Below, one piece after another: positions 7,433 through 17,168 of a DNA stretch of 64,000 nucleotides; the first letter of the stretch is position 1, and every line of letters begins with the position of its first letter. The notes under the pieces were generated by a model that was not told the DNA's origin, made no database searches, and was given only the letters and a program-made list of their open reading frames with translations. Source of the stretch: Hahella sp. CCB-MM4. Lineage in GTDB: Bacteria; Pseudomonadota; Gammaproteobacteria; Pseudomonadales; Oleiphilaceae. The stretch covers positions 186,001 to 250,000 of the forward strand of contig NZ_MRYI01000001.1 of NCBI RefSeq assembly GCF_002260525.1. Reading direction: 5' to 3'. A program made the position numbers and the translations under genes.

Positions 7433-7480
7433 CAGAAACAGAAACAGAAACAGAAACAGAAACAGAAACAGAAACAGAAA
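7433..7480 (+). repeat. Hexanucleotide tandem repeat (CAGAAA)x8
   Basis: Eight perfect head-to-tail copies of CAGAAA fill 48 bases, starting 25 bases after the phhA stop and ending just before a hairpin terminator. Perfect short repeats expand and contract by replication slippage, so this is a likely length-variable locus between strains. It is not inside a gene, so an effect could only be on the phhA 3' untranslated region. Confidence 0.95.
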
Positions 7481-7488
7481 GACAAAAT

Positions 7489-7522
7489 AAAGGCATCTCC
7501 CTGCAAAGTGAGATGCCTTTTT
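7489..7522 (+). terminator. Rho-independent terminator after phhA
   Basis: An 11-bp perfect stem AAAGGCATCTC / GAGATGCCTTT with a ten-base loop, ending in a T run on the plus strand and an A run at its left foot, so it could stop transcription from both phhA and the convergent TRAP operon. Confidence 0.9.
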
Positions 7523-11486: not shown

Positions 11487-11753
11487 TCAATACAACGCTG
11501 CCTCGTCCTCCAGAACTTCCTTGATTGCCTCGATAAAAATCCGATCCGCATCACTCATGATCTCAGGGATACGAATGGTGGTGGTGGCACTGATTTCATC
11601 AGCGATCTTCTGATCGGCATTCTCGTCATTATGCAGACGACGGGCAATTTCCATACATTTGGCGGGAATCGTCGGATCTGCCAGAACCTTCTTAATAAAA
11701 CCACGCATTTCATCAATTATTCTGGCCTGACGGCCTTCATCGGCACTACTCAT
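11487..11753 (-). CDS. Hypothetical 88-residue acidic protein
   Basis: Not recognised. The translation is strongly helical in appearance and acidic (MSSADEGRQARIIDEMRG start, EAIKEVLEDEAALY end), with a central RRLHNDENADQKIADEISA. No membrane segment, signal or cysteine pair. CGAGGAGTTTATGA precedes the ATG, so the ribosome site is good and the gene is probably real. Upstream lies the large non-coding region shared with the divergent GlxA-like regulator. Confidence 0.6.
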   Translation of the reverse strand: MSSADEGRQARIIDEMRGFIKKVLADPTIPAKCMEIARRLHNDENADQKIADEISATTTIRIPEIMSDADRIFIEAIKEVLEDEAALY

Positions 11754-11985: not shown

Positions 11986-12079
11986 AATCAGAATCTCAAA
12001 TTTCTACAGCAAGCAAAACTGTCTGAAATGACATTAACTAGGCTAATCTGGTCACCAATTAAATTATGAGGCACAATAA

Positions 12080-12109
12080 AACTTTCTGTCTGACAGACAG
12101 ATAAAAGTT
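12080..12109. promoter_or_regulatory. Long palindrome upstream of the GlxA-FAN1-helicase operon
   Basis: The core CTGTCTGACAGACAG is a perfect inverted repeat around a central A (12086-12100), flanked by AACTTT and AAAGTT as an outer repeat. It lies 49 bases before the start of the regulator gene, a usual place for an operator. Its CTG-N9-CAG outline is one base shorter than a LexA box, so I do not call it one. The regulator itself is the simplest candidate ligand. Confidence 0.55.
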
Positions 12110-12157
12110 AAATGACGGGTTACCCGCAACAATCACCGATCAGATACGGCAAGCCTT

Positions 12158-13144
12158 ATGCAAAAAGTCACCATTTTGGGATTTGACCTGGCCCTGTCAT
12201 CGGCCATCACCGGAATTGTCGACATACTCAGTATGGCCGGCGTCACCTGGAATTTCTGGCAGCATCAGCCCACCGCTCCGCGTTTCCAGGTTCAATTGGC
12301 CTCCGTCGATGGAGGGCCTGTTCGCTGCTTGAACAAAATGCAGCTTGAAGCCCATTTACGCTTTGATCAGGTGGAGGCAGATCATATCCTGGTCGTTCCC
12401 ACCATCGCGGGAGAAATCGATGTGGCATTGGAACGCAACCGGGAGCTGATCGAAACTCTGGCATTTTTCGGCAGCCGTGGATCGCTGGTCGTTGGTAACT
12501 GCACAGGCGTATTTCTGCTGGCGGAAGCCGGTATACTGGACGGCAAGGTCGCCACCACCCACTGGGCCTATGTGGAACAATTCAAGCAACGATATCCAAA
12601 AGTGGATTTGCGGCCGGAACAGATGATTACCACCTCGGAAAACGTGTACTGCTCCGGCGGCGGAATTGCCTGGCTGGACATGGCGCTCTACCTGACCGAA
12701 CGCTTCTGCGGTCATGATATGGCGGTCAGAACATCCAAATCCTATGTGATCGACATGGGGCGTACATACCAGTCAAGCTACTCTGCCCTCAGAGTTCGCA
12801 AAATGCATCGCGATGAAGACATACTCAAAGTGCAAGATTGGCTGGAGGAGCACTGTCAGCAGGAGATCCGCATCGATGATCTGGCACAACGGTTCAATAT
12901 GAGCCCACGAACCCTTGCCCGGCGGTTTAAAGCGGCTACCGGCGACACGCCTTTGGGATACCTCCAGACCCTGCGGCTGGAGAACGCCAAGAAAATGCTG
13001 GAGGAAACCTCTGACAATATCAGCCAGATCACCATGGCCGTCGGATATGAGGACGTCAGTTCGTTCACCAAACTGTTCCGCCAGAAAACCGGGCTGACCC
13101 CCAAAGATTACCGTAACAAGTTTCAACGCCGGAGCCTCATGTGA
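12158..13144 (+). CDS. GlxA-family transcriptional regulator (DJ-1/PfpI domain + AraC HTH)
   Basis: 328 residues. Residues 1-190 form a DJ-1/PfpI-like domain with a cysteine at the nucleophile elbow (Cys115 in VVGNCTGVFLLAEAG) and His135 in ATTHW. Residues 225-325 form an AraC-type double helix-turn-helix (RIDDLAQRFNMSPRTLARRF and ISQITMAVGYEDVSSFTKLF). GlxA-type regulators are usually activators of nearby genes and the DJ-1 domain may sense a small reactive molecule. The stop overlaps the GTG start of the FAN1 gene by four bases, so it is the first gene of a three-gene operon. Its ribosome site is weak. Confidence 0.92.
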   Translation: MQKVTILGFDLALSSAITGIVDILSMAGVTWNFWQHQPTAPRFQVQLASVDGGPVRCLNKMQLEAHLRFDQVEADHILVVPTIAGEIDVALERNRELIETLAFFGSRGSLVVGNCTGVFLLAEAGILDGKVATTHWAYVEQFKQRYPKVDLRPEQMITTSENVYCSGGGIAWLDMALYLTERFCGHDMAVRTSKSYVIDMGRTYQSSYSALRVRKMHRDEDILKVQDWLEEHCQQEIRIDDLAQRFNMSPRTLARRFKAATGDTPLGYLQTLRLENAKKMLEETSDNISQITMAVGYEDVSSFTKLFRQKTGLTPKDYRNKFQRRSLM

Positions 13145-14793
13145 CAGAACCTGCAGCAGTAGAACTGGATCCGTTCTACTACCTGTACAACTTCAGAACA
13201 CTTCTGGAATGCGTTTTGGAGCAATATGGCGATTTGCTGAATAATGAGGAACAGGAATTCGTCGACACCTTCATGGAACTTCCTGATCCGGAGCAGGCTT
13301 TGCTGGTACGAATGTACAGTCGGCGCTCCACCCTGTTTCGCAGCGATAAGTTGAATTACACCGAACTACCACCGACAGAGCACCTGCTCCCTTCATTGCA
13401 GGAGAGCGGTCTGATCAGTATTAATCCAATGCTGCCGGCCGAAGAGCTACTGGAGCTGGTGACCTGCCCTGAGATGCGGGAGTGGTGGCCGGAGCAGTGT
13501 CCCAAGAAAGGTAACCGTCCATTTCAACTGGAACAGCTGGCGGAACTGACCTCCAATCAGTTTTATGATTCATTCCCCCACACCCTGGTGGAAATCCTTC
13601 ATCAACCAATGATCGACCTCTTTCAGCTCCTGTTCTTCGGCAATCTGGCCCAAGACCTGAGTGCCTTTGTCACCGTTGATCTCGGGCACGTTCGCTACGA
13701 ACCCTATCAACTGGACAGTGACACCCGCCTGTTTCGCCATCGACAGGATATTGACGATTCTGAAGCGATAATGGCACTTCGGGACCAGTTCTACAGTAGC
13801 GAAGAGTTTGATCCCGATATTGCCCAGCATATTCTGCAGCACTTACCGGTTTTAGACGATAACTCCCCGGTAAAAGGCCGCCTCAGCAGATTGTGCAATC
13901 GCATTGGTAAGGGTTATGAACAGCAGCAAATGCTGCCGGAAGCACTCGAAGCTTATTCGTTTTCCCACCGTCCTCCTGCCAGAGAAAGGCGAGCCAGAAT
14001 ATTGTTCAAACTGGAGCAATACGAAGCCGCGGAAAATCGGTGCAAGGAAATCATTAAAAATCCCTGGAATGAGGCCGAAAGCCTGTTCGCCGAGCGCTTC
14101 CAGAAGCAGTGTCGCAAGCAGATGGGGCATAAGGGTCCACCTAACCGGCGCTATACACCGCAGACACAAACGCTGGTTTTACCTAACGGTGACATGCGTG
14201 TAGAGCAAAATGTTCTGATGCATTTGTATCTTGAGGAATCCCCTTGTTTCTATGTTGAAAACTGGCTGATGAATACGGTGTTTGGCCTGACATTCTGGGA
14301 CGCGATATTTGCACCCGTCAGGGGAGCCTTTACCCATCCATTTCAGCGGGCGCCACATGATCTCTTTGATACTGAGTTTGAAAGCAAAAGACACCCGCTG
14401 ATAGAGTCCGCCTTTGACAATATCAACAGCGCCTCGTGGTCAGAACAAATCACGCAACGATGGCGGGATAAATATGGTATCAGCAACCCCTTTGTCGGCT
14501 GGTATGAACCAGGAGAAGATATTCTTTCAATGGCCCTGGACTACATCCCCAGAGAACACTGGATGGCAATATTTCGCCGAATGCTCAGCGACCTTCGGGA
14601 GAATTGTTCAGGATTTCCAGATCTTATTCAGTTCTACGAAGACGGCAGTTACCGGTTGCTGGAAGTGAAAAGCCCGACGGATAAAGTTCAGCCCAATCAG
14701 TTGAGATGGATGAGCATGTTTGAACAACAGGGTATTCCCTATCACCTGCTCCAGGTAAAGTGGGCCGAACAAAGTATTGAATCTCTCTCCTGA
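13141..14793 (+). CDS. FAN1-type structure-specific nuclease (VRR-NUC domain)
   Basis: 550 residues, close to the length of Pseudomonas FAN1. The N-terminal FAN1 winged-helix segment reads LLVRMYSRRSTLFRSDKLNY, a helical repeat region follows, and the C-terminus is a VRR-NUC nuclease with the catalytic PD...ExK: Asp494 in GFPDL, Glu508 and Lys510 in LLEVKSP. FAN1 enzymes cut 5' flaps and unhook interstrand crosslinks. The start is GTG, inside the ATGTGA overlap with the upstream regulator and seven bases after GGAG. Its stop overlaps the helicase start (TGATG). The coupling suggests that the nuclease and helicase are made together. Confidence 0.93.
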   Translation: MTEPAAVELDPFYYLYNFRTLLECVLEQYGDLLNNEEQEFVDTFMELPDPEQALLVRMYSRRSTLFRSDKLNYTELPPTEHLLPSLQESGLISINPMLPAEELLELVTCPEMREWWPEQCPKKGNRPFQLEQLAELTSNQFYDSFPHTLVEILHQPMIDLFQLLFFGNLAQDLSAFVTVDLGHVRYEPYQLDSDTRLFRHRQDIDDSEAIMALRDQFYSSEEFDPDIAQHILQHLPVLDDNSPVKGRLSRLCNRIGKGYEQQQMLPEALEAYSFSHRPPARERRARILFKLEQYEAAENRCKEIIKNPWNEAESLFAERFQKQCRKQMGHKGPPNRRYTPQTQTLVLPNGDMRVEQNVLMHLYLEESPCFYVENWLMNTVFGLTFWDAIFAPVRGAFTHPFQRAPHDLFDTEFESKRHPLIESAFDNINSASWSEQITQRWRDKYGISNPFVGWYEPGEDILSMALDYIPREHWMAIFRRMLSDLRENCSGFPDLIQFYEDGSYRLLEVKSPTDKVQPNQLRWMSMFEQQGIPYHLLQVKWAEQSIESLS

Positions 14794-17168
14794 TGCCTGC
14801 AAACACAACCAGCCTTTCAGCTAAATACAAAATCAACGTCCGTCAGGCCGTGGAACTGCTGTGTCAGGAAGGTGACCTTAGCCATCGCGATCGGGATGTC
14901 GCCACTGCTCGGGAAGGTCAGGAGGCTCATCGACGGGTTCAGACCTCATGGCCGGCTGAAGCTCAGGCGGAAGTCACTATAAAACATCAGATAAAGCATG
15001 AAGGTGTCACGCTGACCATTCACGGCCGCATCGATGGTCTGTGGAAAACCGGAAACAAGATTCGATTTGAAGAGATCAAAACGCTCAGGCACGAAGCCGG
15101 GCTGTTGCCCATCGGCCTGCAAAGCAGGCATCGCTTACAGGTGCTGCTCTATGCCGCTATGTGGGCAGAACAGTTTGGCGAAGAGATTTCAGACAAGTCC
15201 ATTGAGTTGTGCCTGACTTACTTCAACGTCCTGACAGAGAAGGTCGAACAGAACGTCGACACTTGCTCTTTGTCTGCTTTGCGGCAGATGTCCGCCCCGC
15301 TCTTTCAACACTTGATCGACTGGTACTCCGATCTCCATAGGCATCGTCTGCAACGAAATGACTTTCTTGAAAGTATCGGCTTCCCTTACCCGGAATTCCG
15401 GTCAGGACAGCGAGATTTTGCCAAACTGGTATACCGCACCCTGCAGCAGGGAGGCCAATGCTTGATTGAAGCCCCCACCGGCAGCGGAAAATCCCTGGCG
15501 ACCCTGTTCCCCGGCCTTAAATCAATGGCATTGGGGCATCTGGATCAATTGTTCATTACGTCAGCCAAAAACGCCTCTCAACAGGCAGCCCTGGATTCCG
15601 CCCGACAGGTATATGGAAAAGACTCCTGCCAGATCAGAACATTGCAGCTCTCCGCAAAGGAAAAGATCTGTATCCAGGACAGTATTTGCAACAACCAGGA
15701 CTGCCCCCGCCAGACCGGATTCTATGAACGCCTGCCTGGCGCTATCGAAGAAGCCCTGGGCCATGGCTGGCTGGACACGGAAACCGTCAGAGAAATCGCG
15801 CTAAAGCATGAAATTTGTCCACACGGTCTTCAGGGCCTGCTACAACCTTGGGTGGACCTTTTGATTGGTGACTACAACTACGCTTTCTCGCCTAACGTAC
15901 GCTCCGATATGGTGTTTACCCAGAACAGAGTCGGCCTGCTGATCGACGAAGCCCACAACCTCCCTGACCGGGCCCGGGATCTGTTTTCCGCCAAACTGGA
16001 TTCGTGGCAGATTGAGCGCTGTCGGAAAAGCCAGAACAACACCGGATCACCGCTCGCCAAAAGCGCCAGCAGGCTGTTGAAGCACATTCGATCGGTGGTG
16101 CTGGAAAATAATCGGATGGTACAAGGCGAAACGGCCTTTATAAAACAACTGGAACTGTTTTGCGGAGCGGCAGAACAGTGGCTGCTGACTCCTCATGACT
16201 TAATCTCTGTCGCCGATCTGGAAAGCCAGAACAGCGTCACCGAAGCGTTACAGCAGGCCCGTAATTGGTTGTATCTGGCGGACCAGGCGGAGGATGACTT
16301 TGCCTGTTTCGACACGGTTTCTGACAATGGCAGAAATGCATCTCAACGAACGTTGCATCTGAGATGTCTGACTCCAGCCATCATGCTCCAGCCCTACTTT
16401 AAGTCCGTGTCCGCAATGGTTTTGTTTTCTGCGACACTGACACCGCCGGTGTTTTATCAAATCTTACTCGGATTACAGAACAACTATTTGCGGCATCGCA
16501 TGCCTTCTCCTTTTAATCAGAACCACACTGAAGTTCTGATTGCCCCTTACCTGAATATGCGCAGCAAAACCCGCTTCCAGCAAATACACTCCGTGGTGCG
16601 TATGATCGAAGATATCTACGAGAACAGACCTGGCAACTACTGGGTATTCACCCCATCCTACGAGTTCCAGTCCCAGTTAGTGGAAGCTTTTTCAGCATCC
16701 TGTCCTGATATCGAGTACCTGGCCCAGCCACAGGACAATTCGCCGGAAGCCCGGGAAGCATTCTTGTCAGCCTTCAGTGATAACAGTCGCACAGTGGGGT
16801 TTGTCGTACTGGGAGGCGCCTACGGTGAAAGCATCGACATGGCCGGTGAACGCCTGATAGGCAGCATTATTCTGGGCCCGGGATTGCCTCAATTGAGCCG
16901 TGAGAACGACGCCATCGCCAAGTACTTTGAGCAACAGGGGTTGGACGGCTTTGCCTATGCCTACCAACTGCCGGGATGGCAAAAGGTGATTCAGGCGGCA
17001 GGACGGGTTATTCGTACCGAAACAGATAAGGGCATCGTCATATTGGCGGACGATCGCTTTACTCACCAACAGTATCAGGCACTATTTCCTCCTCACTGGC
17101 AACCCAGGCAAACAACCTCCCCGGAACAGTTACTTGAAGCCGTCAGCCAATTCTGGTCCCGGGAGTAG
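14793..17168 (+). CDS. XPD/DinG-like iron-sulfur DNA helicase with N-terminal Cas4/RecB-like nuclease domain
   Basis: 791 residues. Residues 70-125 carry a PD-(D/E)XK pattern: Asp81 in GRIDG, Glu94 and Lys96 in EEIKT, then QVLLYA (Gln116). The helicase part has Walker A EAPTGSGKS (to residue 234), four cysteines suited to an iron-sulfur cluster (293, 299, 304, 342), a DEAH box in LLIDEAHNLPDRA (385-388) and C-terminal motifs VLGGAYGESIDM and QAAGRVIRTETD. It resembles superfamily 2 5'-3' helicases. Coupled by TGATG overlap to the FAN1-like nuclease, it probably unwinds or loads on damaged DNA for it. Confidence 0.93.
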   Translation: MPANTTSLSAKYKINVRQAVELLCQEGDLSHRDRDVATAREGQEAHRRVQTSWPAEAQAEVTIKHQIKHEGVTLTIHGRIDGLWKTGNKIRFEEIKTLRHEAGLLPIGLQSRHRLQVLLYAAMWAEQFGEEISDKSIELCLTYFNVLTEKVEQNVDTCSLSALRQMSAPLFQHLIDWYSDLHRHRLQRNDFLESIGFPYPEFRSGQRDFAKLVYRTLQQGGQCLIEAPTGSGKSLATLFPGLKSMALGHLDQLFITSAKNASQQAALDSARQVYGKDSCQIRTLQLSAKEKICIQDSICNNQDCPRQTGFYERLPGAIEEALGHGWLDTETVREIALKHEICPHGLQGLLQPWVDLLIGDYNYAFSPNVRSDMVFTQNRVGLLIDEAHNLPDRARDLFSAKLDSWQIERCRKSQNNTGSPLAKSASRLLKHIRSVVLENNRMVQGETAFIKQLELFCGAAEQWLLTPHDLISVADLESQNSVTEALQQARNWLYLADQAEDDFACFDTVSDNGRNASQRTLHLRCLTPAIMLQPYFKSVSAMVLFSATLTPPVFYQILLGLQNNYLRHRMPSPFNQNHTEVLIAPYLNMRSKTRFQQIHSVVRMIEDIYENRPGNYWVFTPSYEFQSQLVEAFSASCPDIEYLAQPQDNSPEAREAFLSAFSDNSRTVGFVVLGGAYGESIDMAGERLIGSIILGPGLPQLSRENDAIAKYFEQQGLDGFAYAYQLPGWQKVIQAAGRVIRTETDKGIVILADDRFTHQQYQALFPPHWQPRQTTSPEQLLEAVSQFWSRE

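Follow-up and report, generated by a model that had tools for sequence, protein, structure and literature searches.

The enzymes and the regulator considered here belong to known families, and the closest described systems provide the background for a three-gene locus from Hahella sp. CCB-MM4, in which a predicted DJ-1/AraC regulator, a FAN1 nuclease and an EndoDinG helicase-nuclease are encoded in overlapping frames at 12158-17168. The locus lies in a stretch of 64,000 nucleotides, referred to as the window (contig NZ_MRYI01000001.1, positions 186,001 to 250,000), from a genome of 6.66 Mb (G000). A passage in PMC9635880 remarks that most VRR-Nuc subfamilies, KIAA1018 included, adjoin genes of DNA metabolism, so the neighborhood of FAN1 has at least partly been noticed already; another passage there gives D507, E522 and K524 as the catalytic residues of the Pseudomonas aeruginosa enzyme, PaFAN1. 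The EndoDinG class is described in section 3.7 of PMC11981726 (Cheng 2025) as possessing an N-terminal PD-(D/E)XK nuclease domain with the residues H/E/D/E-K, together with a CCCC iron-sulfur (Fe-S) motif, and neither FAN1 nor VRR occurs in the main text of that paper. A search of openly licensed PubMed Central papers returned no description of a FAN1-EndoDinG pair, of its LexA boxes or of the regulator, and no paper in which FAN1 is combined with LexA. What is new here is the conservation of the pair, the presence of SOS boxes before it outside the host family, and its capture by the regulator.

The FAN1-EndoDinG pair

Three overlapping open reading frames (ORFs) were confirmed on the plus strand, at 12158-13144 (328 amino acids), 13141-14793 (550 amino acids, with a GTG start) and 14793-17168 (791 amino acids). 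An earlier note on this DNA had claimed overlapping stop and start codons at both junctions, and these can be read directly from the sequence: GTG and TGA overlap at 13141-13144 between the first and second genes, and TGA and ATG share base 14793 between the second and third.

Judged by its domains and its alignment, the second gene encodes a bacterial FAN1 with a complete predicted catalytic set. Pfam detects FAN1_HTH (E 2.6e-26), a sub-threshold TPR and the catalytic VRR_NUC domain (PF08774, E 4.4e-28; residues 433-541, plus strand 14437-14763), and the protein aligns over its full length with PaFAN1 (4r89/5y7g, E 5e-89). D494, E508 and K510, already proposed as catalytic in the earlier note, align with D507, E522 and K524 of PaFAN1, and the full E/D/E-x-K set is well preserved among 19 aligned sequences (E373, D494 and K510 in all 19, E508 in 18). 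A single-sequence FAN1 scan of genome contigs gave no match.

The third gene is assigned to EndoDinG on the basis of its nuclease residues, its four-cysteine Fe-S motif, and the XPD-type core and fold predicted for it. Pfam domains include PDDEXK_1 (PF12705, E 4.9e-6; residues 18-159, plus strand 14844-15269), DEAD_2 (PF06733) and Helicase_C_2 (PF13307). Residues 11-770 match the Finegoldia magna DinG structure 9kqh (phmmer E 1.1e-104), and the AlphaFold2 (AF2) model (pLDDT, the predicted local distance difference test score, 86.9) has a TM-score of 0.84 to 9kqh, which ranks ahead of XPD. The nuclease residues H46, E60, D81, E94, K96, Q116 and Y120 are kept in 14/14 sequences, as are the cluster cysteines C293, C304 and C342, with C299 present in 13/14. 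The nuclease domain and the cluster cysteines named in the earlier note are both confirmed. The protein is not a Cas4: it scores 23.9 bits with the TIGR00372 model, whose cut-off is 65, and, by eye, no conserved cysteine triad follows the nuclease motifs.

FAN1 and EndoDinG are a conserved overlapping pair far beyond this genome. Among 58 related genomes, the host included, 26 have FAN1 and 21 have the full helicase type (a match of more than 100 bits extending into the N-terminal domain); when coordinates are compared by eye, the helicase is directly downstream of FAN1 in all 21. This includes G019, where the helicase is split across two contigs and its first part adjoins FAN1. In a wider sample of 398 Pseudomonadota genomes, evenly drawn and searched with strict limits, the helicase was detected in 43, FAN1 in 55 and both in 36, with the two genes adjacent on the same strand in 35 genomes and apart in one. 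FAN1 alone was present in 19 genomes and the helicase alone in seven, giving a hypergeometric probability of 3e-30 for the co-occurrence; like the other counts of pairing, LexA boxes and motifs given below, it ignores phylogeny. FAN1 is also directly upstream in 28 of the best 80 of 577 named helicase loci, all of them Pseudomonadota by organism name. At 76 of 81 junctions the two genes overlap, and in 64 the overlap is 4 bases; the count used the start nearest to the FAN1 stop, a choice that favors overlap.

The helicase loci without FAN1, 52 of the best 80, are mostly from Bacillota and other phyla, with about ten from Pseudomonadota; they include some (L129, L139 and L187 among them) whose contig ends too early upstream to judge. 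No neighbor cluster is shared by more than five of the 52. At L146, a 589-amino-acid ORF before the helicase matches neither FAN1 nor, above the cut-off, any Pfam family, and looks spurious. At L131 (5075-5977) and L183 (8331-10067), from Verrucomicrobia and Aminicenantes genomes, the ORF that overlaps EndoDinG contains a GIY-YIG nuclease domain, joined at L183 by an RNase_T exonuclease domain. These two loci hint that EndoDinG partners other structure-specific nucleases too.

Variants of FAN1 itself were also seen. The homologue at L045 (5475-7619, genome G042) is fused to a C-terminal RNase_T (DnaQ-type) exonuclease domain, and further FAN1 matches in open frames of 719-784 amino acids may be the same fusion. 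At L044 (2825-5179), in a genome without the helicase (G056), a 784-amino-acid ORF that matches no Pfam family overlaps the FAN1 start.

LexA boxes upstream of FAN1

LexA-like boxes of 16 bases were scored, with weights derived from the E. coli consensus, in 90 distinct FAN1 upstream regions (107 loci minus 17 duplicates). Boxes scoring at least 23 are present in 31 of the 90; 90 windows taken from within the gene contain none, and Markov resampling predicts 0.28. Nearly all of these are found outside the host family (30 of 56 upstreams), in Pseudomonas, Microbulbifer, Massilia, Paraburkholderia and Pusillimonas loci among others. Five of the 90 upstreams belong to the relatives that have no helicase, and none of the five has a strong box. 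LexA boxes are likewise rare before helicase genes that have no FAN1, with one gamma-type and two Bacillus-type boxes in 52 (0.12 expected for the latter). The Bacillus-type box, GAAC-N4-GTTC, lies 36-47 nucleotides upstream of EndoDinG at L142 and L143 (Listeria and Paenibacillus).

PMC12796719 reports that P. aeruginosa PA1865 (FAN1) and PA1866 are both upregulated after UV-C, does not count them among the members of the three known damage regulons, and reports that PA1865 is also upregulated with ciprofloxacin; another gene named DinG, PA1045, is listed there as LexA-regulated. If PA1866 is the EndoDinG partner, as we infer, a LexA box may account for the induction of both genes, and would be a simple explanation of it.

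In Hahella, LexA does not appear to control the unit. Each of the seven Hahella lexA loci, two of which were scanned in reverse orientation, has one strong box near the gene, scoring at least 28 in six genomes and 25.3 in G003. The E. coli-type consensus therefore holds in this genus. The box at the lexA gene of the host (CTGTATACATTAACAG) scores 28.6, whereas no box above 19.1 occurs in the 450 nucleotides upstream of the regulator in the seven genomes with all three genes, and LexA control was rejected on that basis.

The regulator and its candidate operator

The first gene is predicted to encode a GATase1/DJ-1 AraC (GlxA-like) regulator, with a DJ-1/PfpI domain (PF01965, 41.9 bits, cut-off 26.6) followed by an AraC helix-turn-helix (HTH) domain (PF12833, 95.4 bits, cut-off 33.6). 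It is not an FtrA equivalog by the NCBIfam model NF006902 (199.2 bits, below the cut-off of 425). Such a regulator directly precedes FAN1 in seven of the 26 FAN1-bearing relatives, comprising six of the seven Hahella genomes (G000, G001, G002, G004, G005 and G006) and one genome of another genus (G019). In six of these the two genes overlap, by either 4 bases or 1 base, and in G002 nine bases separate them. The remaining Hahella genome, G003, has the FAN1-EndoDinG pair without the regulator. This distribution indicates that the FAN1-adjacent regulator is a lineage-specific addition to the pair. Of the unit proposed in the earlier note, which had also called for a comparison of gene neighborhoods, the overlapping nuclease and helicase genes stand across the relatives and in 35 of the 36 Pseudomonadota genomes that have both, while the regulator belongs to the unit in Hahella and one other genus and not beyond them.

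In other members of the family and order, homologues of the regulator with about 42-52% identity are found apart from FAN1. The surroundings of 20 such loci were retrieved (in one, L058, no regulator ORF was called), and in 13 of them a protein of about 600 residues from an acyl-CoA dehydrogenase cluster is encoded on the opposite strand within two genes of the regulator. Enoyl-CoA hydratase and FadH-like (Oxidored_FMN) clusters, each named from one member, are also frequent neighbors.

A candidate operator emerges from 24 non-redundant regulator upstreams (27 minus three near-identical Hahella sequences). An exact TGTC-N6-GACA is present in 12 of them, including 4/4 of the FAN1-type and 8/20 of the others; first-order Markov resampling gives a mean of 0.10 and a maximum of 2 in 500 trials, and the same half-sites at any other spacing from 0 to 13 occur in at most one upstream each. 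Among the remaining 12 upstreams, six have a one-mismatch form 47-63 nucleotides before the start, two have one elsewhere and four have none. In the window, the site (TGTCTGAAATGACA) is at 12020-12033 on the plus strand, immediately followed by a conserved block, TTAACTAGGCTAATCT (12034-12049, plus strand), that is probably the promoter core. The candidate operator would overlie the expected place of the -35 box, an arrangement that would suit an AraC-type activator.

A longer form, TGTCTN5GACATTN3TAGG, occurs exactly once per genome in the six regulator-bearing Hahella genomes, always at the regulator promoter, and is absent as an exact match from G003, which suggests that the regulator acts mainly locally. 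Wider searches for a regulon were uninformative. CTGTC-N6-GACA has 61 sites in G000 and 61 in the reversed control, and its counts are inflated in G002, G005 and G001; in G002 most of the listed sites belong to CTGTCGTTGCAGACA, a much-repeated dispersed palindrome, and G005 and G001 likewise exceed their controls. With two mismatches, counts of the longer motif are not above the control overall, and its sole one-mismatch site in G000 is at the start of a gene, presumably hslU from its sequence.

The earlier note had instead placed a palindromic operator at 12080-12109. The perfect palindrome there, TCTGTCTGACAGACAGA (12085-12101, strand-less, with 8-base arms), is exact only in this genome among the seven Hahella genomes, and no palindrome with arms of at least 7 and a loop of at most 3 is found in the 350 nucleotides upstream of the regulator in G006, G001, G005 or G019, even though the G006 regulator is 94.5% identical to that of the host. 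Since it is not conserved among Hahella, the palindrome was rejected as the operator, and the conserved site 65 bases upstream fits better.

Proposed function and alternatives

The reading we favor, to which we give about even confidence, is that the locus is an SOS-type FAN1-EndoDinG unit for crosslink or flap repair that has come, in a family mostly without the LexA box, under a dedicated DJ-1/AraC regulator. The protein families, the catalytic residues, the pairing, the overlaps, the LexA boxes elsewhere with none here, and the conserved motif are observed; from these we infer joint action on crosslinks, transcription as one message, an activating regulator that binds the motif, and the nature of the signal. 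The two enzymes would form a repair unit for blocked or crosslinked DNA, in which FAN1 would cleave 5' flaps at forks that are stalled or crosslinked and would also cut past an interstrand crosslink, and EndoDinG, a 5'-3' helicase resembling XPD and FANCJ with a nuclease of its own, would open the lesion and trim the freed strand. The gene overlap would supply both enzymes in step. Outside the host family, the signal for the pair in many Pseudomonadota is probably DNA damage, via LexA. In Hahella and the one related genus, the regulator encoded in the unit probably controls that unit, itself included, through TGTC-N6-GACA, and in Hahella a ligand of the DJ-1 domain is the probable signal. A lipid-derived compound would be a first guess for that ligand, because the nearest regulators are linked to acyl-CoA dehydrogenase genes.

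Lipid aldehydes are known crosslinkers. A bolder extension, which we put forward only tentatively and consider rather unlikely, is that the repair module moved from LexA control, as in more distant relatives, to a dedicated DJ-1/AraC metabolite sensor recruited from regulators of fatty acid oxidation, such that Hahella would induce repair in response to a crosslink-causing lipid-type metabolite or aldehyde before any damage is sensed. If true, Hahella would offer a natural example of a repair unit shifted from damage sensing to chemical sensing.

Several observations weigh against the favored reading or its extension. FAN1 occurs without the helicase in five of the 26 FAN1-bearing relatives (G011, G041, G042, G043 and G056) and in 19 of the 55 FAN1 genomes of the Pseudomonadota sample, and the helicase is widespread without FAN1, as the 52 of the best 80 of 577 named loci attest. 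With a LexA score of 18 the contrast is weaker (55/90 upstreams, 13/90 windows inside the gene, 11.5 expected). Within the host family, a strong box is found in only one of 34 FAN1 upstreams (G016), or five of 34 at a score of 20, and G003 and G010 have neither a LexA box nor the regulator. Given how few strong boxes occur across the family, box loss was probably family-wide and either preceded or was separate from the gain of the regulator; on these sequences, the 1/34 count leaves a direct swap of LexA for the regulator in Hahella a supposition. In P. aeruginosa, PMC12796719 reports that PA1865 is repressed by hydrogen peroxide. Finally, the branch that sets the seven FAN1-adjacent regulators to one side of the regulator tree (support 94/96, 92% of 200 bootstrap trees) is just under the strong-support mark of the tool, and the root of that tree is unsure because the outgroup aligned badly.

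Among the alternatives, the one with most to recommend it, a possibility that we nonetheless find unlikely, is that the regulator is a passenger that controls itself or a distant metabolic gene, with FAN1-EndoDinG an ordinary pair expressed constitutively or from an internal promoter. The acyl-CoA dehydrogenase genes that face the regulator's relatives in 13 of 20 loci point this way, as do the pair without a regulator in G003 and the many members of the family in which the pair lacks both an adjacent regulator and a strong LexA box. A passenger would not, however, be expected to share 4 bases or 1 base with FAN1 in six genomes (with a nine-base gap in G002), to group with other FAN1-adjacent regulators in the tree, or to have the strict motif exact only at this promoter in six Hahella genomes. 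In addition, acyl-CoA dehydrogenase orthologues are present in three of the seven Hahella genomes, and the exact operator precedes none of the three, with a one-mismatch site in two.

The earlier note had suggested that the DJ-1 domain detects reactive carbonyls, and a sensor of methylglyoxal or formaldehyde that turns on crosslink repair would agree with the DJ-1/PfpI domain, with its preserved elbow cysteine C115, and with FAN1, which reportedly acts on crosslinks (Gwon 2014 and Jin 2018, cited in PMC12796719 and PMC9635880). We nevertheless consider this improbable. This cysteine is present in 26 of 27 regulators, those beside fatty acid genes included, and therefore does not single out carbonyl sensing; none of the five annotated neighbors in the window is a glyoxal or aldehyde enzyme (the neighbors in relatives are mostly unannotated); and the GATase1-type AraC regulators ArgR, GbdR and CdhR respond to amino acids or amines. 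An anti-plasmid or anti-phage role, with a helicase like the DinG of type IV CRISPR systems, is more doubtful still, despite a match of the helicase to the PADLOC typeIV_DinG model (E 1.6e-102). No PADLOC model matches FAN1 or the regulator at E 0.01, the Finegoldia DinG heads the fold-search list, on which CasDinG ranks far lower, and a search of 50,697 phage records returned no FAN1 match at E 1e-10. No array-like CRISPR repeat is present within window positions 1-40000, where cas genes were not looked for individually. Membership in CRISPR type IV was rejected on the missing array, the PADLOC results and the structural distance of CasDinG.

Other features of the window

Upstream of the regulator is a small divergent gene (11487-11753, minus strand, 88 amino acids) with no Pfam match. 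An ORF of similar size lies beside the unit in relatives, whether or not they have the regulator; at loci L029, L030, L031 and L047, ORFs of cluster C6 occupy the same place, a kinship based on position and size, not on alignment. A short CAGAAA tandem run is present at 7433-7492.

Comparison with known systems

The predicted regulator shares its DJ-1/PfpI and AraC HTH domains with the GATase1 AraC regulators of the FtrA/GlxA type, but it falls under the FtrA cut-off (199 vs 425 bits) and is coupled to DNA-repair genes. FAN1 resembles PaFAN1 (PA1865; 4r89, 5y7g) in its full-length homology and catalytic residues, and differs from it in being encoded between a DJ-1/AraC regulator and a helicase, with no LexA box. 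The helicase has the features of the EndoDinG subgroup (PMC11981726) and of 9kqh, namely the N-terminal PD-(D/E)XK domain with H/E/D/E-K, the CCCC Fe-S motif and the XPD-type core, but its gene overlaps FAN1. Bacterial FAN1 thereby gains a standing partner, and the pairing parallels that of eukaryotic FAN1 with the FANCJ and XPD helicases, which combine, in what may be a similar way of working, a VRR-NUC flap nuclease with an XPD-family Fe-S helicase. Both XPD and FANCJ are recovered when the third gene is searched by sequence and by fold, and among the XPD structures is one stalled at a crosslink (8rev). Unlike the eukaryotic system, Hahella is without the Fanconi core, its EndoDinG has an extra nuclease domain, and the two activities are encoded by two overlapping bacterial genes.

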